Origin: Pseudoxanthomonas koreensis
GTDB taxonomy: Bacteria > Pseudomonadota > Gammaproteobacteria > Xanthomonadales > Xanthomonadaceae
Reading direction: 5' to 3'
NCBI RefSeq assembly: GCF_010093225.1
Contig: NZ_PDWM01000001.1
Coordinates: 1-64,000 of the forward strand
Length of the DNA stretch: 64,000 nt
Shown: positions 3,798-16,188 of the stretch, one piece after another
Layout of the letters: each line of letters opens with the position of its first letter
Position numbering within the stretch: position 1 is the stretch's first letter
Made by a program: the position numbers and the translations under genes
The notes under the pieces: generated by a model
Databases searched by the model: none
Seen by the model: only the letters and a program-made list of their open reading frames with translations
What the model was told of the DNA's origin: nothing

Positions 3798-4772
3798 CTA
3801 CCCGGCCACCTGTGCGGCCTGTTCCTCCCGGCCGCTGCGCTCCAGGTAGCGCGCCGCCTCGTCCCCGTATGCCTCGTAGCCCGGCGCCAGGTGCGGCAGC
3901 AGCAACCGCAGCCAGGCACGGCTGACCCGGCGCGTATCGCGCGGGCAGACCATGGCCCGCGCCGCGGTCAGGTCGCCGACGGCGACCATGCCGGCGAACC
4001 CGTCCGGATCGGTGCCATAGATCAGGCACTGCAGGTTGAAGAAGCGCTGCTCGGCCAGCGCGTGCTCGTCGGCATAGGCCTGCAGGTTGTAGGCACCGGT
4101 GCTGTCCGACAGCATCCAGTTGGCGGCCAGGCCGAGGTTGCCGGTTACCTCCTCCGGCGTCTCGTCCAGCCCGGCGAAGCGCAGCATCAGGATCCCCGCC
4201 AGCTGGTCCACCGCGTCCTCCTGGCGGCCGGTGACCGGCAGGTCCAGCAGGTGCACCAGCGCATGCCCGGTCTCGTGCAGCACGATGAAACGCACGTTGG
4301 CGCGCACATAGCGCAGCGGATGGTCCTCGCCCAGCCCCAGCGCCTGCTGGTGCTCCACCCCGCGCTCGTAGAGCGTGCGCAGCGTCTCGTAGCACAGCAC
4401 CACCTCGGCATCGCCGGGGCGGTAGAACGCACCGAACTCGCCGCACTCGGCGGTGACGAAACGCAGCCGCCGCGGCAGCGCGAACATGCCGTCGATCGCG
4501 TGCACCTCCGGCAGCTGCTGCCACAGGTCGGCGTCGCGCACGCGCCAGTAGATCTCCTGCAGGCCCGGCGAGACCGGCGGCGCGTAGGCGTACTCGAACG
4601 CAGGCACCGCCGGGTGCGCACGCGGCTGGCCCGCCGCAGGCCTGGGCTGGACCACCGAGCGCGGCATCGCGCGGTCGGCGGCTGCCGCGGGCCGCGATGC
4701 GGCGCCGGCGATGGTGGAGATGGCCGTTGCCAGCGCCAGCAGCAAGGCCGCGATAAAGGTCTTCGAAGTCAT
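3798..4772 (-). CDS. Secreted DUF4344 putative metallopeptidase
   Basis: Protein of 324 aa with an N-terminal signal peptide (residues 1-25, ending ...AGAAS) and a zinc-binding HETGH motif at 166-170, fitting the DUF4344 family of putative metallopeptidases. The protein would act outside the cytoplasm; its substrate is not known. The gene starts 11 bases after the stop of the HigA-like antitoxin gene on the same strand, so the two are probably co-transcribed. The M20 peptidase gene follows 93 bases downstream. The function as a protease is inferred from the motif only. Confidence 0.7.
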   Translation of the reverse strand: MTSKTFIAALLLALATAISTIAGAASRPAAAADRAMPRSVVQPRPAAGQPRAHPAVPAFEYAYAPPVSPGLQEIYWRVRDADLWQQLPEVHAIDGMFALPRRLRFVTAECGEFGAFYRPGDAEVVLCYETLRTLYERGVEHQQALGLGEDHPLRYVRANVRFIVLHETGHALVHLLDLPVTGRQEDAVDQLAGILMLRFAGLDETPEEVTGNLGLAANWMLSDSTGAYNLQAYADEHALAEQRFFNLQCLIYGTDPDGFAGMVAVGDLTAARAMVCPRDTRRVSRAWLRLLLPHLAPGYEAYGDEAARYLERSGREEQAAQVAG

Positions 4773-4783
4773 CCAGCCGTCGC

Positions 4784-5083
4784 TCAGGCCGCGATCCGCT
4801 CGATCCGCCGCACCGCCGCGCCCAGGGCACGGCGCGCCTGCTCCAGGTCGTAGTCGTTCTGAAGGCCCAGCCAGAAGCGCTCGCTGGTGCCCAGCGCCGC
4901 CGCCAGCCGCACGGCGGTGTCGGCGGTCACGCTGCGCTTGCCCAGCACGATCTCGTTGATCCGCCGCGGCGGCACGCCCATCGCCCGCGCCAGCGCGTTC
5001 TGGCTGATCGCCAGCGGCTGCAGGAATTCCTCCTGCAGGACTTCACCAGGGTGGATGTTGGGCAGGGTCTTCAATCGGCTCAC
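4784..5083 (-). CDS. HigA-type XRE antitoxin/regulator without HigB
   Basis: DNA-binding protein of 99 aa with the HigA signature: HPGEVLQEEF near residue 10, then a helix-turn-helix (ISQNALARAMGVPPRRINEI) and TADTAVRLAAALGTS. It starts at GTG 5083. In higBA operons the toxin gene normally lies directly upstream, but here that stretch holds only a remnant of an unrelated family. The product may therefore be an orphan antitoxin used as a transcription regulator. The DUF4344 metallopeptidase gene follows after 11 bases and is the obvious candidate target or operon partner. Confidence 0.8.
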   Translation of the reverse strand: MSRLKTLPNIHPGEVLQEEFLQPLAISQNALARAMGVPPRRINEIVLGKRSVTADTAVRLAAALGTSERFWLGLQNDYDLEQARRALGAAVRRIERIAA

Positions 5084-5178
5084 GGCGCGACTATAACGCT
5101 GCGCGTCATGGGCTTCAAACCTTCGGACACGGCACCGCGCCGGCAAGACCAGCACCGGATGCATTCCGGCGAAACGCG

Positions 5179-5382
5179 TCAGTTTCCGGAAGCCCCCTGC
5201 GTGGCCGGTGCCGCCGGCCTGGCGGGCGGATCGCCCGAGGGATGGTCGACCACGTACAGCCAGCGTCCATCGATCTTCTTCTGCACATCGGTGAAGCGGC
5301 CAGTGCTGGAGAACTCGGCTCCGCCGGCCTTGTCGGCCATGCGGATGATGTAGGTACCCCATGCGGCGCGGGCATCGTCACC
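5179..5382 (-). pseudogene. Remnant of a SnoaL/DUF4440-like protein
   Basis: A frame of about 67 codons resembles the C-terminal half of DUF4440/SnoaL-like (NTF2-fold) proteins: GDDARAAWG, GRFTDVQKKIDGRWLYVVD, then HPSGD. The frame continues upstream to 5529, but that part does not look like the family, so the N-terminal half seems lost. The whole stretch 5084-5540 otherwise shows no gene. It may be a decayed gene, and it occupies the position where a HigB toxin would be expected. The family match comes from pattern memory, not a search. Confidence 0.45.
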
Positions 5383-5995: not shown

Positions 5996-7309
5996 CTACC
6001 CCGAAATCTCCCGCACCGCACGCACCGCGCGCTCGACCTCGTCGGCGGTGTTGACCAGGCTTGGCGCCAGCCGCGCCCAGGTGATCGCGTAGGGACTGGT
6101 GCTGGCGATGATCCTGCGCGCCAGCAACTGCTTCACCACCTCCGCCGGCGCCACGCCGTCCACCTCGAACGCGACCAGCCCCGCCGACAGCGCGGCGGAC
6201 ATCGGCGTGTGCAGCTTCACCTTCGGGTTGGCCGCCAGCCCGGCCTTGCACTGGTCGTTGAGCTCGCGGATGCGTGCGGCCACCCGTGCGCGCCCCATCT
6301 GCCGGTGCATGCGGAACGCCGCGGCGACCGCCCACTGGTGCTCGTAGGCGTGGAAGCCCCCGGGGCTCATGCGGTCGGCGGTGGTGGGCGTGGCCGGCGG
6401 CACCTGCTGTTCCCAGGCGAGGTACTGGTCGAGGTCGGTGAAGCTGGGGATCAGCGGCCGCAGGCGCGCCCAGTTCTCTGCGTTGGCCCACACCAGCCCG
6501 GTACCGCGCGGCGCGAACATCCACTTGTGGGTGCCGGCGCAGAAGTAGTCGCAGCCCAGCGTCACGACGGTCTCGTCGGTGGAGCCCAGGCCGTGGACGC
6601 CGTCCACCACCAGCAGCAGCGGCGGCCCGGGGCGCGCACGCAGCGCCGCAGCAATCTCGCGGATGGGCAGGCGGATGCCGCTGCTGGAATGCACCCAGGT
6701 CAGCCCCACCACCCGCGTGCGCGGGCCGATGCCCTTGAGCAGCGCGTCGATGATCGACTCGGTGGTGGCCGTCGCCGACTCCGCGAACAGCGGGATCATG
6801 CGCATGCCCGCGCCGGCGCGGTCCACGGCCAGCCGGATCGACTCATGGTGCGAGTAGTGGTCGTGGGTGGTGCACAGCACCTCGTCGCCGGCCTGCAGCG
6901 GCAGCCCCTGGTACACCAGCGCCAGGCCGGTGGTGGTGTTGCCGGTCAGGCACACGTCCTGCGGCCGCGCGCCCAGGTAGTCGGCGACCTCGGCCTGCAC
7001 CTGCACGTGCAGGTTGTCCGCCCCTTCGGAGAACATGCCGTGCTCGACGGTAACGAAGGGATTGTGGTCGATCGCACGCCGGTAGCCTTCGATCGCCGCG
7101 CGCACCGGCGCCGGATGGCTGGCGATGAAGAAGCTGGCGAAGTGCATCCACTCCGGATCCAGCACGAACTGGGCACGGACCGCGTCCCAGGTGGAGAGGT
7201 CCGCCATGGGCGGGGTCTGCGCTTCCAGCGCGGCCAGCAGGCCGCCTGGCAACAGGGCGGCGGACAGGGCGGCCGGGGCCGCGAGCAAGCGGCGTCGGGT
7301 GATGTGCAT
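5996..7309 (-). CDS. Exported class V aminotransferase (CefD-like)
   Basis: PLP-dependent class V aminotransferase of 437 aa related to isopenicillin-N-epimerase-like proteins. The PLP lysine is K262 in AGTHKWMFAPRG, and VVDGVHGLG holds the PLP-binding aspartate (D236). The N-terminus has RRRLLAA followed by a hydrophobic stretch, which looks like a Tat signal and suggests the folded, cofactor-loaded enzyme is exported. The gene is monocistronic and convergent with the VOC gene. The defence cassette begins shortly upstream of its start. The substrate cannot be read from the sequence. Confidence 0.8.
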   Translation of the reverse strand: MHITRRRLLAAPAALSAALLPGGLLAALEAQTPPMADLSTWDAVRAQFVLDPEWMHFASFFIASHPAPVRAAIEGYRRAIDHNPFVTVEHGMFSEGADNLHVQVQAEVADYLGARPQDVCLTGNTTTGLALVYQGLPLQAGDEVLCTTHDHYSHHESIRLAVDRAGAGMRMIPLFAESATATTESIIDALLKGIGPRTRVVGLTWVHSSSGIRLPIREIAAALRARPGPPLLLVVDGVHGLGSTDETVVTLGCDYFCAGTHKWMFAPRGTGLVWANAENWARLRPLIPSFTDLDQYLAWEQQVPPATPTTADRMSPGGFHAYEHQWAVAAAFRMHRQMGRARVAARIRELNDQCKAGLAANPKVKLHTPMSAALSAGLVAFEVDGVAPAEVVKQLLARRIIASTSPYAITWARLAPSLVNTADEVERAVRAVREISG

Positions 7310-7448
7310 GGGCCAACTCGCGTCATGGCCCGGTGGGGCCGATGGTGGGTCAACGTGGGGAGCGGCTGGGGGCGGTCAGGTAATGCCCGTCTCCGCTGCT
7401 GAGACAAAGCCAGGACAACGTGCGCTGGCCACCCGCCGGAATAGCGCT

Positions 7449-7838
7449 ATGACCAAGAAAACCCATCCCAAGCCAGTCCCGCTCCATGCCTTGGAGTACC
7501 TCTATCGCGACGCCGCCAACTGGAAGACGCATGGTTTGGTCCTGCTGCAAGGCCCCTGCCCGCCTACGATGCAGGCCCAGATTGTCGATTCCCTCGATAG
7601 CGGGCTCTACTTCGTTGCCGAACAGGTCAAGCTTCCGGCACTGCAGCGTCGCCATAACGCCGAGTACGGCGGCGCTGATGAGGATCTAGACCACGCCTTC
7701 CATGAGTTCTTCGAATTGCGGCCGGCGACTGACGACGACCTCAAAAGCGCGACACAGACGGTTTCCGCGGAGGAGGTCGGAAAACTATTTTCGATGGCAA
7801 AGCGGCGGTGGGACTGCAGGCTGTCACCGTACTGCTAA
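7449..7838 (+). CDS. Hypothetical protein beside the restriction endonuclease
   Basis: Protein of 129 aa that I do not recognise. It is soluble, with no signal peptide or membrane segment. Visible features are an N-terminal lysine-rich start, YFVAEQVKLPALQ in the middle and an acidic stretch DEDLDHAFHEFFEL. The composition is less GC-rich than that of the core genes. It sits 138 bases upstream of the endonuclease on the same strand, at the left edge of the cassette. It might be a regulator or accessory part of that cassette, or simply a neighbouring accessory gene. Confidence 0.6.
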   Translation: MTKKTHPKPVPLHALEYLYRDAANWKTHGLVLLQGPCPPTMQAQIVDSLDSGLYFVAEQVKLPALQRRHNAEYGGADEDLDHAFHEFFELRPATDDDLKSATQTVSAEEVGKLFSMAKRRWDCRLSPYC

Positions 7839-7976
7839 GACGGCAGATAAGGCCCAAGCCCACCACCACGAACACACCCTGCCCACCTGCCTGCTCACGG
7901 GGTAACCTGGTACTCGGGGAGCCCGGCCACGGAGCAGCCTCCGGCGCTGCCGTCCGAGTCCGAGGGGAGATTGGGA

Positions 7977-9269
7977 ATGATGAACGTGTTGAAGCGATTC
8001 AGGATGGGCCAGCTCTACCGCTACCCAAAACCCGCTCAGATCGATACTTCTGAGGTGGATGGCCTGCCGAACTTCTATTACATCGTCTCCAACCCCGGGT
8101 CGCCAAGCCTGCAGCTCGAACGGGGCATCAACGCGCCCAGCCCGACTCGGGCGCCCGATGGCGAGCGCCTGGCCGTCATTTTGTTGTCGAGCAATGAACA
8201 TAAGCTCGGTTCGGCCGAGAATCCATGGCATGACACCCTCTCTCCCGACGAGGGCTTCGCTCGTTATTTCGGCGACAACAAGACGCCCGATGTCGATCCC
8301 GGCCTTGCTCCCGGTAACCGGACCCTTCTAAAGCAATTCGAACTCCACACCTCAGCAGACAAGACCAAGCGCGCCTCGGCGGCCCCCATCCTTCTTTTCA
8401 GTTCGCCGCGCAAAGGAATCAAGGAGTTCGCGGGCCTTGCCCTCATCGTTGGCGCGCATCGGGTCACCCAATACTCGGAAAAGAACGGTGGGTTCTTCAC
8501 CAACTACCTCTTCGATCTGGCCGTCCTCTCGCTCACCGAGGAAGACGAGAGCCTAGCGATGATGTGGATCAAAGACCGCCGCGACGCCAGCCTCGATGCC
8601 GTCGCCGCCAACGCCATGGCGCCGAAGGCTTGGCTGCAGTGGATCAAATACGGCAGCCCGGAGATCGAGCGCATTCGTCGCCGAGTCTCGCGACACCACA
8701 TCTTGCCCAGGAAGGGACAAGTGGCACCGGCCGGTTCGGAGAACAGCAAAACACTGGAAACGATCTACAAATTCTACGAACCACGGCGGCATCGGTTCGA
8801 AGCCTTGGCCAGCTTGGCCTGCGAATCCATGATCCGCGGTACCGGCGCGAGTTATCACCGTGGCTGGCTGACCCGTGGGACCGGCGATGGCGGCCTGGAC
8901 TTCGTCGGCCGCATCGACATCGGCGAAGGCTTGTCCCGGACCAAGCTCGTGGTCTTGGGACAGGCCAAATGCGAAAAGATCGATGCCCCCACCGGAGGCG
9001 TTCATATCGCCCGAACGGTCGCTCGACTGCGTCGTGGCTGGGTCGGTGCCTACGTCACCACATCGTTCTTTTCCGAGGCGGTGCAACGCGAGGTGTTCGA
9101 GGATCAATACCCGGTGCTTCTACTGAATGGTGCCGGCCTCGCCAATGAAGTCACCAAGCTCAAGCTGGCATCGGGATTCAACAGCGTGGACAAGTTCCTC
9201 GAACACATCGATGCGGACTACGAATCCCAGGTAAGTAGCCGGAGACCAGAAGAAGTGCTCTGGGACTGA
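7977..9269 (+). CDS. AspBHI-like restriction endonuclease with Mrr-type nuclease
   Basis: Protein of 430 aa with two parts. The first ~200 residues resemble the N-terminal SRA-like base-recognition domain of AspBHI (features near YFGDNKTPD and KGIKEFAGLAL). The C-terminal part is an Mrr/MspJI-type PD-(D/E)xK nuclease with GDGGLD (D308) and Q329-A-K331. AspBHI and MspJI cut DNA containing 5-methylcytosine. The ATG at 7977 follows GGGGAG at a good distance; a TTG at 7971 is also in frame. It converges on a C5 methyltransferase gene, which is unexpected for a strictly methyl-dependent nuclease. It may instead be a methylation-sensitive member of the family. Specificity is unknown. Confidence 0.72.
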   Translation: MMNVLKRFRMGQLYRYPKPAQIDTSEVDGLPNFYYIVSNPGSPSLQLERGINAPSPTRAPDGERLAVILLSSNEHKLGSAENPWHDTLSPDEGFARYFGDNKTPDVDPGLAPGNRTLLKQFELHTSADKTKRASAAPILLFSSPRKGIKEFAGLALIVGAHRVTQYSEKNGGFFTNYLFDLAVLSLTEEDESLAMMWIKDRRDASLDAVAANAMAPKAWLQWIKYGSPEIERIRRRVSRHHILPRKGQVAPAGSENSKTLETIYKFYEPRRHRFEALASLACESMIRGTGASYHRGWLTRGTGDGGLDFVGRIDIGEGLSRTKLVVLGQAKCEKIDAPTGGVHIARTVARLRRGWVGAYVTTSFFSEAVQREVFEDQYPVLLLNGAGLANEVTKLKLASGFNSVDKFLEHIDADYESQVSSRRPEEVLWD

Positions 9270-9523
9270 GGCCGCCGGACGAGTGCAATGTTGGTAACGG
9301 ACTCCACCTTGGCACGGCGAAAGTGGACCTAACCCGGTTCGCACATATCGACCCACCCCTACCGGCCACCGCGCTCGCAAAACTTCAACTAATTTTAGGA
9401 CCACTCCGAGAAAACGCAGATCGACTAATAGTTGAGGCATGGATTTCAAAATATGCCCCGCAGCCGCAATCAGGGAGCGCGCGCTGCCCGGAACCATTCG
9501 CCCTCGTTAGTAGACCTAAAAAA

Positions 9524-10528
9524 CTAGCTCGACCGCAAAGCGCTTGCGTGCGCACATATCATCGGCGGCGGCAAAGCATTACCAATCATCAGCGCTATAG
9601 CTTCTTTTCCATGACTTTTCAGAAACCTGTACTCAACAGGAAATCCCTGAAGAACAGCTGCCTCACGCAGCGAGATGGCCCTATCTTCGAATGGGTGAAC
9701 AAATCGACCCTTTGATGGATTGTGGCAACCACTTGTGATCGTAGGCGCAGGTTTATCCCATTGCATCCGCCCATAGACATCACCGAACCCATTTATGCGC
9801 CTGTGGCACGGCAACGTAAGCTCATCCGGAATATCTGACCTACTCCCCCCATTCTTGGGTACAGCACGGATTATCCTCATTGCACCCTCGGAGTGATTAA
9901 CTCTAAGAAGATGAAGATCATCATCCATTGGGACCTGCGATAGCGCATCGCCCACGGTGAGACGAGTCGAACATCTATCTGGCTTGATGGGATCGCGATC
10001 GAGAGATCCGAGCAAGATCAATCTCTTTCGGCGTTGGGGAACGCCGTAGTCGGATGCATCAACCACCTCCTCAACCAACCGGTAGCCCACTTTCACAAGC
10101 CCCGCCTTCAGTGTCACCCAGATGCTTTGCCGCCTAAGCCCTGGAACATTCTCGAGGAGAAGATTCTTTGGCCGAAGAATTTGCGCGAACTCCAAGAAGG
10201 CGAGCGCCAGGTCATTACGGGGATCGCTATTTCCACGCGCACCATTCTTCGTCCGAATCCTAGAAAAACCTTGACACGGCGGACAACCCGCCAAGAGGCC
10301 AAGTTCACCGGGCTTCAATCCAAGGCTCTCGCCCATATCGGCTGCAGACACACTCCTGATGTCATCAGAGAAAAGGCGGACGTCAGGATGATTCAAGCGA
10401 TAAGTCTCAGAAGCTCGCCGATCGATCTCAATCGCCGCAAGCACCTTGAAGCCGGCCATCTTCAATCCGAGTGATAACCCCCCACACCCGGAGAACAGAT
10501 CAATTGCAGTCAAGTGGTCGTTACGCAT
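9524..10528 (-). CDS. DNA (cytosine-5) methyltransferase, Dcm family
   Basis: Protein of 334 aa that transfers a methyl group from SAM to C5 of cytosine. The motifs run in the standard order: AIDLFSGCGGLSLG (motif I), GCPPCQGFS with catalytic C85 (IV), LLENVPGL (VI), QRRKRL (VIII), a short target-recognition region, then REAAVLQGFP (IX) and GNALPPPM (X). The ATG at 10528 overlaps the end of the ATPase gene by eight bases, so translation is probably coupled. A TTG at 10570 is an alternative start. Base composition is clearly lower in GC than in the surrounding core genes, suggesting transfer. The product probably protects host DNA against a partner nuclease. The recognition sequence cannot be read off. 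Confidence 0.9.
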   Translation of the reverse strand: MRNDHLTAIDLFSGCGGLSLGLKMAGFKVLAAIEIDRRASETYRLNHPDVRLFSDDIRSVSAADMGESLGLKPGELGLLAGCPPCQGFSRIRTKNGARGNSDPRNDLALAFLEFAQILRPKNLLLENVPGLRRQSIWVTLKAGLVKVGYRLVEEVVDASDYGVPQRRKRLILLGSLDRDPIKPDRCSTRLTVGDALSQVPMDDDLHLLRVNHSEGAMRIIRAVPKNGGSRSDIPDELTLPCHRRINGFGDVYGRMQWDKPAPTITSGCHNPSKGRFVHPFEDRAISLREAAVLQGFPVEYRFLKSHGKEAIALMIGNALPPPMICAHASALRSS

Positions 10529-12305
10529 GCGAAGCTCGCCACACACCGACGAAATAAGAAAGCGCGTCAACCACCTTCGTCACGTCTTCGCACCCGGACG
10601 CATGCTTGGATAGTTCGTATCCAGCGATCTCAATTACCTGGCCTGCATTTGCATGCGGAACGTCACCCTCAATTTTCTCGTAAAGAACACTTTTTGCCTT
10701 AGCGGAACTACCGTCCAAATACTGAACTAGATCCGGGAAAGCAGCACGTATAACAATCTCCTCAGGAACACTCCCGGGAAGAAACCTCACCCTCTCATCA
10801 ACCCATTTGACGTAATTTTTCTGAGAAGAAATCTTCTTGTCTGCTAAGGCAGGATCCTTTCCGCCGCCAAGGTACAGTGATGGCTCGGTGCCTATGCATG
10901 CCTTGATCAGATCACCTAAATCTGATTCATCAGCAGGCGCGAGCGCGGAAATATCCGGCAACGGACAACCGAATGCATGGTCGCCGTCCAGCAGGACAAA
11001 TGTGTCATCCCGGGCGACCATCGCCGATGGAACGTAGTGACCAAGAATCATAGGAGCACCGCCCGGCACTACAACGGCCTCTATGATATCCCGCTCGCCT
11101 TCAGGTAGTCGACGCTTCGCCACATCCACAACCTTACGCGCCAACTCATCCTCGACTATTACGCGGATGCGGCCAGGCGACTTTGAACCAAGGCGATTGA
11201 AGGCGACTAAAGCAGAGGAACTATTGGCAACGGTAACCCGCCCATTCGGGGTCTCCTCAAGAACCTTGATTGCCGGATCGGGCAAATCCCAAAGAAACTC
11301 ACCTGAATGAGTCGATATAACGACCTGCATCTTCTTTTCAGCTATGCAATGCAGCAGGAACTGCAGGAACCTCCGCTGCGCCCCCGGATGAAGCGACGTC
11401 TCTGGCTCATCAAGCAAAACCAAAGCATGGTTATCAGCCGACAACAGCTTGATGACAGAACTGACAACCGCGACCTCACCACTTCCGGCGAATGCCTCGG
11501 AATACTTAAGTGTGGGCCGCTCGAATAGCACACTAATATCTTGACCACGATAACCTGGATACAACGTATGCCGCACGATAGTTGCAGATGAGTACTGGTG
11601 CCCCAAAATGTGCCTTACCCACTTAATCTCTTCTGCGTCGAGTTTTCGATTCTCAAAAACCCGCTCTCGATTCCAAAGCGGATAGCTCTTGTGCCCCGCA
11701 TCGATCACAAGTTTCAGCCGGCGAGCTTCTCGTAGCATCGCCGCATGCTTTTCCTCTTTTGTTTGGCCGGTTTCGAAGTAAAAAAAACGGTCAAACGCGC
11801 TGATTTCTGCTTTGAAGTTGATGTGTACTACTGACCGATCAACAGGCAGCCATCGATCAGAAGCGGCTCCGCCAGCAGGAGCCGCCGGTAGCGGCGCCAT
11901 GTCGTCGCCGAGAACAATCTTCGTCGGCTCCCAGTAATCCAACTTACTTCCAGACCGAACTCGTGCTTTTCGTGTTTCTACGAAACCACCCACATGATAA
12001 TTCCAGTGCGAGTAGATGAACCTTGATACCCCACCCTTGCCCTCCACGATAGGGTCGAGCTCAGTCGAAAACCAGAAATCGCGAATAGAATACTTATCGG
12101 GAGCGCCATACAGCGCATGAAGGACGGAGCTCTTTCCGCTGCCATTCGGCCCAACGAGCACTGTCAAAGGAAAGTCGAATTCGATCTTCGTGCCGGGCTC
12201 GATATTCTTAAAATTTGGAAATCGGATTGATCCGATGTACCCCTTAAGGGGCGCACCAGGCTTGAATCCACCGATTGTCTTCAGTAAGACACCGATACTT
12301 TTCAT
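10521..12305 (-). CDS. AAA ATPase with TOPRIM-like C-terminus (OLD-like)
   Basis: Protein of 594 aa. An SMC/ABC-like ATPase is shown by Walker A GPNGSGKSS (52-60), a signature-like SGE near 275, Walker B LVLLDEPE (D299, E300) and an H-loop STHS (H333). The C-terminal part has E385 in IVEDELA and a D440-G-D442 pair in VLLDGD, as in TOPRIM domains of OLD-family nucleases. The ATG at 12305 follows CGAGGA; a TTG at 12308 is also possible. Only 18 bases separate it from the icmF stop on the same strand, so transcription may run in from icmF. GC content is low: 10801-10860 has 23 G/C in 60 bases. Likely role is an ATP-driven nuclease or restriction-associated effector. Confidence 0.75.
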   Translation of the reverse strand: MKSIGVLLKTIGGFKPGAPLKGYIGSIRFPNFKNIEPGTKIEFDFPLTVLVGPNGSGKSSVLHALYGAPDKYSIRDFWFSTELDPIVEGKGGVSRFIYSHWNYHVGGFVETRKARVRSGSKLDYWEPTKIVLGDDMAPLPAAPAGGAASDRWLPVDRSVVHINFKAEISAFDRFFYFETGQTKEEKHAAMLREARRLKLVIDAGHKSYPLWNRERVFENRKLDAEEIKWVRHILGHQYSSATIVRHTLYPGYRGQDISVLFERPTLKYSEAFAGSGEVAVVSSVIKLLSADNHALVLLDEPETSLHPGAQRRFLQFLLHCIAEKKMQVVISTHSGEFLWDLPDPAIKVLEETPNGRVTVANSSSALVAFNRLGSKSPGRIRVIVEDELARKVVDVAKRRLPEGERDIIEAVVVPGGAPMILGHYVPSAMVARDDTFVLLDGDHAFGCPLPDISALAPADESDLGDLIKACIGTEPSLYLGGGKDPALADKKISSQKNYVKWVDERVRFLPGSVPEEIVIRAAFPDLVQYLDGSSAKAKSVLYEKIEGDVPHANAGQVIEIAGYELSKHASGCEDVTKVVDALSYFVGVWRASHA

Positions 12306-12323
12306 CAATCCTCGGATTTTTCG

Positions 12324-15300
12324 TCACATATTCCGCCGATACTCCCCACCCACGTCATACAACGCATGGCTGATCTGCCCCAGGCTATGCGTCTTGACCG
12401 CATCCACCAGCGCCGCAAAGACGTTCCCCCGCCTGCGCGCCGTGTCCTGAAGATACGCCAGGCCGTGGCCGTCGTGGACGGTTTCGGCCAGCCCGCTGCC
12501 TGATTCGTCGGCGCCGGCGATGTGGCCGGTGATGGTCTCCCCTTCCGGGGCCAGGCGGTTGCGGTTGGCCTGCCAGCCGGCGACGTTCGCGATCTGCTGA
12601 GCCTTCTCGGCCTCGGTGGAGCGGATCAGTTCGATCTCGGTGGCCACTTCGCCGCCGTGTTCCCGGGGCAGGAAGGTGTTGACGCCCACCAGCGGCAGCG
12701 AGCCGTCGTGCTTCTTGTGTTCGTAGTACAGCGACTCTTCCTGGATCTTGCCGCGCTGGTACATGGTGTCCATGGCGCCGAGCACGCCGCCGCGCTCGCT
12801 GATGGCCTCGAACTCCTTGTAGACCGCTTCCTCGACCAGGTCGGTCAGGTACTCCACGGCGAAGCTGCCCTGCCAAGGGTTCTCGCAGAAGTTCAGCCCC
12901 AGCTCCTTGTTGATGATCATCTGGATCGCCACCGCGCGGCGCACGCTCTCTTCGGTCGGCGTGGTGATGGCCTCGTCGTAGGCGTTGGTGTGCAGGCTGT
13001 TGCAGTTGTCGAACAGGGCGTACAGGGCCTGCAGCGTGGTGCGGATGTCGTTGAACTGGATCTCCTGCGCGTGCAGGGAGCGGCCGGAGGTCTGGATGTG
13101 GTACTTCATCATCTGGCTGCGCTCGTTGCCGCTGTAGCGCTCGCGCATGGCGCGGGCCCAGATGCGGCGGGCGACGCGGCCGATGACGGTGTACTCCGGG
13201 TCCATGCCGTTGCTGAAGAAGAAGCTCAGGTTGGGCGCGAAATCGTCGATGTGCATGCCGCGCGCCAGGTAGTACTCGACGATGGTGAAGCCATTGCTCA
13301 GGGTGAAGGCGAGCTGGCTGATCGGGTTCGCCCCGGCTTCGGCGATGTGGTAGCCGGAGATGGACACCGAATAGAAATTGCGGACCTGGTGGTCGACGAA
13401 GTACTGCTGGATGTCGCCCATCATGCGCAGGGCGAACTCGGTGCTGAAGATGCAGGTGTTCTGGGCCTGGTCTTCCTTGAGGATGTCGGCCTGCACGGTG
13501 CCGCGCACGGTCTTCAGGGTTTCGGCCTTGATCTTCGCGTAGGTCTCCGCATCGAGCAGTTGCTCGCCGGTGATGCCGAGCAGGCCCAGGCCCCGGCCGT
13601 CGTTTCCGGCCGGCAGGTCGCCGTGGTAGCGCGGACGCTCGCGGCCTTCGAAGAAGGCGTCGATCTTCTTCCGCGCCTGCGCCCAGCGGGTCTCGTCGGC
13701 CTTGAGGTACTTCTCCACCTGCTGGTCGATGGCGGTGTTCATGAACATCGCCAGGATGATCGGTGCCGGGCCGTTGATGGTCATCGACACGCTGGTGGTC
13801 GGCGCGCACAGGTCGAAGCCGGAGTACAGCTTCTTCATGTCGTCCAGGGTGGGGATGTTGACCCCGGAGTTGCCGATCTTGCCGTAGATGTCCGGGCGCG
13901 GCGCCGGGTCTTCGCCGTACAGGGTGACCGAGTCGAACGCGGTGGACAGGCGCGCGGCCGGCTGGCCGGCGGACAGGTAGTGGAAGCGGCGGTTGGTGCG
14001 CTCGGGCGTGCCTTCGCCGGCGAACATGCGGATCGGGTCTTCGCCGGTGCGCCGGTACGGGTAGACGCCGCCGGTGTAGGGGTAGCTGCCGGGGAGGTTT
14101 TCCTTGCCGAGGAAGGTCAGCAGTTCGCCCCAGCTGCGATAGGTGGGGGCGGCGATCTTGGGGACTTTCTGGTGGCTGAGGGATTCGCGGTAGTTCTCGA
14201 CGCGGATGGTCTTGTTGCGGACCTGGTATTCGGTGACGTCGTCGGTGATGGACTTCAGGCGCTGCGGCCATTCGCGCAGCTGGCGCAGGGATTCGCTGGA
14301 GAGCGACTGGATGGCGTCGTTGTAGCGCTGGCGCAGGGTCAGCAGCGAGCGGTCGCCCTCCCCCTGCAGGTCGGCGCTGTCGTACAGCGCGAGCGCGGCC
14401 GGCAGCTTCGCATCGCCCAGGTCGCGCAGCGACTCCCAGTAGGACTGGGCGCGGCTGGCGGTTTCGGCCTCGCTCTCGATGCGGCGGTTGATGCCCCTGC
14501 CCTGCTCGGCGATCTCGGCCAGGTAGCGCACGCGGGCGCCGGGGATCAGAACGGTGGCGCGCGGCTCCTTCAGCGAGGTGTCGATGACCGGCTGGAAGTC
14601 GCAACGGTTGCCCTCGCCTGCGCCTGCACCGGTCTTCTCCCGCAGCAGCCGGCACAGGTTGGCGAACATCCAGCTGATGCCGGGGTCGTTGAACTGGGAG
14701 GCAATCGTCGGGTAGACCGGGATGTCCTCATCCTTCACCGTGAACGCGGTGCGGTTGCGCTTCCACTGCTTGCGCACGTCGCGCAGGGCGTCTTCGGCGC
14801 CGCGGCGGTCGTACTTGTTGAGCACGATCAGCTCGGCGTAGTCGAGCATGTCGATCTTCTCGAGCTGGCTGGCCGCGCCGTAGTCGGAGGTCATCACGTA
14901 CATCGGGAAGTCGACCAGGTCGACGATCTCCGAGTCGGACTGGCCGATGCCGGCGGTCTCCACCAGCACCAGGTCGAACGCCAGCGACTTGAGGTAGGCG
15001 ATGCAGTCCTTGAGCACGGCGTTGGTGGCCACGTTCTGGCGGCGGGTGGCCATCGAGCGCATGTAGACGCGGTGGCTGCGCAGCGAGTTCATGCGGATGC
15101 GGTCGCCCAGCAGCGCGCCGCCGCTGCGGCGACGGGTCGGATCGACCGAGACCACCGCGATGCGCATGGCCGGGAAGCTGGACAGGAAGCGGTTGAGCAG
15201 TTCGTCGGTGACCGAGGATTTGCCGGCGCCGCCGGTGCCGGTGATGCCGATGACCGGGGTGCGGCCGGCGGCGAGCTGCCATTGCTTGCGCAGCCTGGCC

Positions 15301-15935
15301 AGGTCGGCGTCGCCGTATACGCCGTCTTCGATATCGCTGAGCACTCGTCCGATGTCGATTTCGCCCTCTGTAGGAGCCCCATTCATGGGCGACCCGACGC
15401 CCGCATGCATCCCGGCGTTCGGCAGCGCACCCGAAGCATCCGACGGCGCCGCCAGGCGCCCATCCCGCGCCGCGCCGGCGCGGGCGACGACGTCCTCGAT
15501 CATCTCCACCAGCCCCATCTTCATGCCGTCGTTGGGGTGGTAGATGCGCTCGACGCCGTAGGCCTCCAGTTCGCGGATCTCTTCGGGGGTGATCGTGCCG
15601 CCGCCGCCGCCGAACACGCGGATGTGCGCGGCGCCGCGCTCGCGCAGCATGTCGACCATGTACTTGAAGTATTCGACGTGCCCGCCCTGGTAGCTGGACA
15701 GGGCGATGGCGTCGGCGTCCTCCTGCAGCGCGGCGCGGACCACGTCCTCGACGCTGCGGTTGTGGCCCAGGTGGATGACCTCGGCGCCCTGCGCCTGGAT
15801 CAGCCGGCGCATGATGTTGATCGCCGCGTCGTGGCCGTCGAACAGGCTGGCGGCGGTGACGAAGCGCAACGGCGTGGCGTCGGGCTGCGCCTGCGGAGTC
15901 GTGTCGGGGGAACGCGGGCTGGCGGAGGTGCTCAT
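12324..15935 (-). CDS. icmF: Fused B12-dependent acyl-CoA mutase IcmF
   Basis: Protein of 1203 aa joining three parts. The N-terminal cobalamin domain has DGHDAAIN (axial H35). The middle GTPase chaperone of MeaB type has its P-loop GTGGAGKSS at 233-241. The C-terminal part is the mutase large domain with [10 protein letters not shown] and [19 protein letters not shown]. This order defines IcmF, which interconverts isobutyryl-CoA and n-butyryl-CoA and in some species isovaleryl/pivalyl-CoA. The ATG at 15935 is chosen where homology begins; the frame is open to 16121. A linker of about 40 residues (155-195) contains a stretch encoded by a REP-type repeat. It fits the branched-chain acyl-CoA genes nearby. 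Confidence 0.92.
15369..15395. repeat. Single REP arm inside the icmF reading frame
   Basis: The 27 bases begin TGTAGGAGCCCC and end GGGCGACCC, matching the heads and tails of the intergenic REP arms elsewhere in the window with a different centre. Read on the minus strand they encode residues 181-189 of IcmF (GSPMNGAPT) without breaking the frame. No inverted partner arm is seen nearby. Confidence 0.75.
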
Positions 15936-16052
15936 TCGGGCGCTGCTGGAATCAAGGACTTGAATCCCGATTCTAGTACTTTCACCGGAAACCGAGCAGT
16001 GCGCTGGAGCCGGCTTCCCGCGGGACGTGCCTGCTCCATGCCGACGCCCCCC

Positions 16053-16188
16053 TGTAGGAGCCCACTTCAGGGGGCGACCCCGCGAACGCATGCCAATGCG
16101 GTGTTCAACAGCGCGCTCCACTGGGCCCCGCGTTGTCCGCGACGACGCCAGGCGCCTGCCAGGTCGCCCCCTGAAGTGGGCTCCTACA
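16053..16188. repeat. REP doublet, TGTAGGAGCCC type, between icmF and leucine dehydrogenase
   Basis: Inverted arms at 16053-16080 (TGTAGGAGCCC...GGGCGACCC) and 16162-16188. It lies in the 459-base gap 15936-16394 between two divergently transcribed genes. The rest of that gap shows only a possible -10 (TAGAAT, 16254-16259) before the leucine dehydrogenase gene. This is the only doublet in the window that is not at a convergent junction. Confidence 0.85.

Follow-up and report, generated by a model that had tools for sequence, protein, structure and literature searches.

Four genes stand between a class V aminotransferase gene and icmF in Pseudoxanthomonas koreensis, and the question they raise is whether they form one system. 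They occupy positions 7449-12305 of a 64,000-nucleotide stretch (contig NZ_PDWM01000001.1, assembly GCF_010093225.1), referred to here as the window. An initial annotation had proposed a compact defence-type cassette in which a 129-amino-acid unknown (u129), an AspBHI-N/Mrr-type nuclease, a Dcm-family methyltransferase and an ATPase with a TOPRIM-like tail act together. The defence-type content and foreign origin of the insert were upheld, but its unity was not: the insert comprises two unrelated defence modules lying side by side, probably acquired separately. Module 1 is u129 with an MspJI-type nuclease (7449-9269) and module 2 is the ATPase with the C5-methyltransferase (9524-12305); the latter is a recurrent two-gene unit, probably an unnamed restriction-modification (RM)-like system. 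The features are as follows.

5996-7309, minus strand: class V aminotransferase gene, one flank of the insert (PF00266, E 2.8e-34)
7449-7838, plus strand: u129, a 129-amino-acid open reading frame (ORF) that precedes the MspJI-type gene and is read in the same direction; no family match
7971-9269, plus strand: MspJI-family restriction endonuclease gene, up to 432 amino acids, module 1 (PF18062, E 7.1e-24; PF04471, E 4e-6)
9270-9523, no strand: spacer between the converging modules, across which the third-position guanine-plus-cytosine (GC) fraction of the genes falls from 0.73 to 0.53
9524-10528, minus strand: C5-cytosine (Dcm-type) DNA methyltransferase gene, 334 amino acids (PF00145, E 2.9e-53)
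10521-10528, minus strand: eight-base overlap of the 3' end of the ATPase gene, including its stop codon, with the methyltransferase ATG
10521-12305, minus strand: OLD-type ABC ATPase gene with a C-terminal TOPRIM-helical part, 594 amino acids, candidate effector of module 2 (PF13175, E 8.6e-21)
10524-11192, minus strand: predicted TOPRIM and helical domain, ATPase residues 372-594 (fold comparison)
12324-16121, minus strand: icmF, the other flank of the insert

Relatives of the module 2 ATPase were found by its sequence alone, without the methyltransferase in the query. They came from Vreelandella alkaliphila, a Bacteroidetes metagenome-assembled genome, two genomes that share the phylum of the window (one of them its class as well) and 12 contigs of a viral collection, making 17 loci with the window, or about 15 after merging near-identical ones (L093 with L095 from the tree, L098 with L101 by eye). 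All 17 have a C5-methyltransferase gene next to that of the ATPase: the two adjoin directly in 15, while L022 and L096 each have a single ORF separating them; the intervening gene of L022 encodes 207 amino acids. The ATPase gene comes first in the window, L021, L098, L099, L100, L101 and L102, the methyltransferase gene comes first in L022, L083, L091 and L094, and the two converge in L084, L092, L093, L095, L096 and L097; these three arrangements suggest that the pair has been kept through rearrangement. The eight-base overlap in the window suggests coupled translation, and in L021 the two genes overlap by 10 bases. No C5-methyltransferase was found near other OLD-like or AAA ATPases in 18 control loci of 11-13 kb each, which comprised 6 of 6 partial matches from a search of 398 genomes and 12 of 20 other-genome matches among relatives; 12 of the 18 gave an ATPase again when scanned with the ATPase family profile. 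Inspection by eye also showed a transposase-like ORF between the two genes of L096 (9769-10977) and another interrupting the ATPase gene of L101 (8925-9697).

The two proteins have also diverged together. Their distance matrices, compared without L099 and L101, correlate at r 0.81 over 15 loci, at 0.79 without the near-duplicate L095, at 0.86 when L022 is left out as well, and at 0.82 for ten representatives that likewise exclude both (Mantel P 0.0001 for each of the last three values). The window methyltransferase, which starts at the ATG at 10528 (alternative TTG at 10570), carries PCQ, ENV and QRxR, which we take to be C5-methyltransferase motifs, and it groups by tree with the ATPase-paired enzymes. 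The stretch between motifs VIII and IX is the usual target-recognition region of C5-methyltransferases, and it is there that the paired enzymes fall into differing subgroups. Those of the window, L021, L091 and L102 are alike in this stretch and may, judging from it, share a methylation motif; the same four form one clade in the ATPase tree (support 1.00).

The ATPase gene starts with an ATG at 12305 (alternative TTG at 12308), and its product matches AAA_15/AAA_21 in Pfam. In an alignment of 13 members, made without L083 and L084 and without L099 and L101, whose ATPase genes are interrupted, the Walker A, signature, DEPE and H-loop motifs are invariant or nearly so, and E385, D440 and D442 are invariant in all 13. 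Their spacing is that of the metal-A ligands E400, D455 and D457 of the Burkholderia pseudomallei OLD protein, as given in the extracts of PMC6755086 consulted; the metal-B residue Glu404, described there as absolutely conserved in class 2 OLD proteins, is replaced by Ala in 12 of the 13 members (Ala389 in the window) and by Leu in the remaining one. The best Foldseek match of the whole model was the OLD nuclease 6p74, with Gabija second; in the VIA structure-similarity list SMC and Rad50 ATPase heads stood on top, the 6p74 row spanned residues 23-588, and Gabija was not among the best 50 matches listed. For the C-terminal region, modelled with a mean predicted local distance difference test score (pLDDT) of 90.5, Foldseek ranks 1-4 were all C-terminal regions of OLD proteins (6njx, 6njw, 6njv and 6nk8), and a sequence profile of that part alone gave no convincing solved relative (best E 0.1). 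The TOPRIM-like tail and an OLD-like fold are supported by structure prediction.

Full-length relatives of the ATPase are rare. In the phylum sample 9 of 398 genomes matched at E 1e-15 or better, three of them (the window's own included) at full length; in the class sample the window's own genome alone among 369 reached E 1e-30, with at most three candidates scored per genome in both searches. Among 60 relatives, 18 matched at E 0.001, and only the window's own did so at full length. Scans of viral contigs with the single ATPase or a three-row alignment found no relative, and a five-row alignment found the 12 mentioned above; in the plasmid collection 11 records gave partial matches only, none covering 80%. 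The surroundings of the pair, examined with PHROGs for ten selected neighbour proteins, support a mobile setting: tail sheath, virion structural and tail protein matches surround it in L099, integrases lie near it in L084, L092, L098 and L102, and a phage exonuclease lies near it in L100. The pair is also near an integrase-type gene in L093, L095, L096 and L097 (by eye), as in L092 (PHROGs), and a gene reading as guaB follows it in L092, L093 and L095 (by eye), which suggests an island family inserted beside guaB in these viral-collection contigs. The Bacteroidetes locus L022 (5528-9713) encodes Vsr, the C5-methyltransferase, the 207-amino-acid protein, which has a sub-threshold BsaWI-type match, and then the ATPase, and it is possibly a fuller RM version. 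A second, separate pair of Vsr and C5-methyltransferase genes lies upstream in L094 (2358-4088).

Gene content, conserved pairing, correlated divergence, the predicted fold and the conserved metal-A residues were observed; we favour an RM-like mode of action because the pairing with a self-marking enzyme is constant, the fold is of nuclease type with conserved metal residues, and the setting is mobile. The methyltransferase would methylate a host motif as the mark of self; the ATPase, probably an ATP-clamped multimer, would let the TOPRIM nuclease nick or degrade unmarked DNA, and the resulting anti-phage system would work without a dedicated type II enzyme. That the methyltransferase marks self and the OLD-type nuclease attacks what is unmarked is a proposal to which we give about even weight.

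The main rival of the RM-like reading is an abortive effector joined to a methyltransferase shield. The OLD-type protein would then be a toxic nuclease set off by phage, of the kind seen in PARIS, HEC-04/IbfA and retron-Eco8, and the methyltransferase an antidote or a shield, guarding either host DNA against the OLD-type nuclease or the element against restriction by the host. We regard this as unlikely, though well ahead of the other alternatives: the HEC-04 match is confined in its best stretch to ATPase residues 217-442, HEC-04 and IbfA are described without a methyltransferase in the text consulted, as against the 17 of 17 pairing found here, and a guard model leaves the constant C5-methyltransferase partner unexplained unless the mark matters. 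A solitary methyltransferase and a separate OLD nuclease could, alternatively, have come together by chance or through clustering in islands. C5-methyltransferases occur in 3 of 17 scanned loci from the icmF site and around u129 relatives (L062, L063 and L069) and so are frequent in such islands; chance or clustering is nevertheless an improbable account of 17 of 17 loci as against 0 of 18 controls and of correlated divergence, and in L098 and L099 phage-type genes, not an island, flank the pair.

Two further readings would bind module 2 to its neighbour, and the RM-like pair has to be set against these as well. The idea of a single four-gene system draws on the contiguity of the genes between core-type genes, in an insert that is lower in GC than its flanks: G or C makes up 23 of 60 bases at 10801-10860, as first reported, and of the 1-kb windows spaced at 250 bases along the 64 kb, which have a median GC of 0.704, the 19 below 0.62 all start at 7501-12001. 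The insert is not uniform, however. The flanking icmF and aminotransferase genes have a third-position GC of 0.91-0.94; the value falls to 0.73 for u129 and the MspJI-type gene and to 0.53-0.54 for the genes of the ATPase and the methyltransferase, so that the insert has two composition strata, which suggest two acquisitions. Gene order, strands and the two convergent pairs are as originally described (ORFs, Pfam), but co-occurrence separates them: relatives of the MspJI-type protein or u129 were found in none of the 16 other ATPase loci (8.6-18 kb each), and the ATPase was found in none of 10 other MspJI-family loci (11-15 kb each). Joint action of the four, which ATPase and nuclease homologues that hardly ever adjoin had been named in advance as refuting, is accordingly not supported, and only the pairing of ATPase with methyltransferase survives the proposed co-occurrence check. 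A C5-methyltransferase gene does lie within about 1.3 kb of the MspJI-family gene in 4 of the 10 (L121, L122, L124 and L127), which speaks for the four-gene system, to our minds very improbable, and also for a mark-and-destroy scheme in which the methyltransferase methylates invading DNA and the MspJI-type enzyme next to it then cuts. That scheme is the least credible of all; the same enzyme would also methylate the host, none was found in the other 6 of the 10 stretches, and the window methyltransferase groups with the ATPase-paired ones.

The module 1 nuclease has the AspBHI-type N-terminal and Mrr-like catalytic domains of the first description, both at full length, aligns with MspJI (4f0p) over residues 12-430 of 432 (E 5.8e-95), and has as its best PADLOC model the methyl-directed nuclease mREase_II (PDLC03206, E 5.5e-142). 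D and QAK of the protein line up with MspJI, where D...QxK presumably supplies the catalytic residues, and module 1 would cut incoming DNA carrying 5-methylcytosine. Few relatives exist (at E 1e-15, 3 genomes among 398, own included), and a single-sequence scan of viral contigs found none. The 10 comparison loci were 8 of 16 plasmid records (two Priestia records, one Ensifer near-duplicate and five archaeal partial matches were omitted) and both genomes of the 398-genome search. C5-methyltransferases near such genes are puzzling, since a nuclease of this type should cut DNA containing 5-methylcytosine.

Searched against Pfam, PADLOC and NCBIfam with a limit of E 1, the 129-amino-acid protein matched nothing, but it is the product of a real gene, since relatives exist elsewhere: L061 3825-4190, L072 9001-9453, L073 4030-4455, L130 3519-3851, L085 5989-6309 and L131 near 4001-4297. 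A single-sequence scan of viral contigs found no relative, and an alignment scan found one. Five aligned sequences share the motifs Y-x-YRDA-x-N-x-K and D-H-x-x-HE. Restriction-type genes adjoin u129 in the window and in 4 of the 6 other places, the neighbours being MspJI-type in the window, PLD/ResIII/DUF3427 in one place HNH_2 in two (Pfam), and UvrD-like and DUF3883-like in L130 (by eye). A Bdellovibrio plasmid and a phage-collection record that lacks annotation account for the other two places. The protein may act as a small accessory in modules that restrict DNA.

Judged by its sequence, the icmF at the insertion site appears to encode a B12-dependent isobutyryl-CoA mutase and not the IcmF of type VI secretion. 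Its C-terminal part was found in 33 of the 37 genomes searched, which were the window's own and others of its genus, family and order. The sequence that follows it was taken from 12 same-genus and 3 more distant genomes (L057-L071); for 13 of the 15 loci (the 12 and L069) the ORFs were listed, and they vary between genomes. A Pfam scan of 17 selected ORFs from 11 of the 13 loci (all but L060 and L064), which also took in two u129 neighbours and one methyltransferase adjoining an MspJI relative, placed the start of a defence-type domain within about 3 kb of icmF in 7 of the 12 same-genus genomes.

L057: Mrr
L059: SIR2 and HerA
L061: ResIII/PLD/DUF3427
L062: GmrSD_N and AAA
L066: AAA_15
L067: N6_N4 methylase and GmrSD_N
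L068: reverse transcriptase

Vsr and a C5-methyltransferase lie about 4-6 kb from icmF in L063, and no clear defence domain appeared among the scanned ORFs of L058 and L065. When ten proteins of the window were compared by tblastn with the 17 loci L057-L073, the ATPase and the MspJI-type protein had no match, and u129 was found in L061 and in L072 and L073, the latter two having been fetched for u129. The site 3' of icmF is a hotspot of varied defence-type cargo across the genus; a conserved syntenic core locus, which the initial annotation had named as an observation that would tell against transfer, is rejected, as the cargo after icmF differs among relatives. Integration linked to tRNA was rejected (0 tRNA in the window). 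No convincing flanking repeat was found as a recombination edge within 7000-12700, and promoter and terminator signals showed no excess over shuffled sequence. Farther out, an ORF at 4784-5362 (minus strand) has a helix-turn-helix stretch that we take to resemble a HigA-type antitoxin or regulator.

How OLD-type nucleases discriminate self from invader is an open matter; for Gabija it is called unknown in the extracts seen of a 2025 preprint, where phage end-binding proteins are proposed (PMC12407980). An OLD subfamily beside a C5-methyltransferase in every locus examined offers a testable answer for one branch, namely methylation, and, if true, an otherwise poorly discriminating nuclease family would be tied to a methylation signal. 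The pair also shows how a compact mobile element may be missed by defence catalogues if its two halves match generic models and nothing more specific. ABC-ATPase-anchored RM-like conflict systems are the subject of reference 52 of PMC12839542, probably Krishnan et al. (2020); that source lies outside the literature searched, which in the parts covered showed no named system with a pair of C5-methyltransferase and OLD-type ATPase.

Among known systems, module 1 resembles MspJI in its full-range sequence match and in the D/QAK region, its gene being preceded by u129. Module 2 is like type II restriction-modification in that a 5-methylcytosine methyltransferase lies beside a putative DNA-cutting enzyme in a compact, mobile unit; here the candidate restriction enzyme is the ATPase-TOPRIM protein, and no separate nuclease gene was seen to recur next to the pair in ORF lists inspected by eye. 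HEC-04/IbfA is likewise a single-chain ATPase-TOPRIM protein, and among PADLOC models the window ATPase scores best with HEC-04 (E 1.5e-31, best stretch at model positions 159-377 of 494, a second at a laxer limit), a model that all 13 members match, but methyltransferase has 0 occurrences in the HEC-04/IbfA paper searched, unlike the pair here. PARIS encodes the AriA ATPase and the AriB TOPRIM protein in separate genes, whereas the window protein is one chain; it matches the fused AriAB model of PADLOC over a short stretch (E 1e-15). The metal-B Glu404 expected of Gabija GajA (class 2) is replaced in the window family. What sets the OLD classes apart is the gene context, the nuclease gene standing by itself, next to GajB, within retrons or within PARIS, according to the part of PMC10568477 consulted, and methyltransferase or methylase has 0 occurrences in that review. 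With classes 1 to 4 (P2 Old, Gabija GajA, the retron effector and PARIS AriA/AriB) the window protein shares the ABC ATPase and TOPRIM-helical architecture; it keeps the metal-A triad and has OLD proteins first in Foldseek searches, at 10-18% identity to solved OLD-type proteins in fold alignments, and it differs in its C5-cytosine methyltransferase partner and in the Ala at the Glu404 position. We put forward, with a little less than even confidence, that it represents a further OLD context class, an immune system of two genes that works on its own and travels with prophages and islands in several phyla, in which a C5-methyltransferase would provide the self mark and an OLD nuclease with an altered metal-B site would serve as the restriction enzyme.

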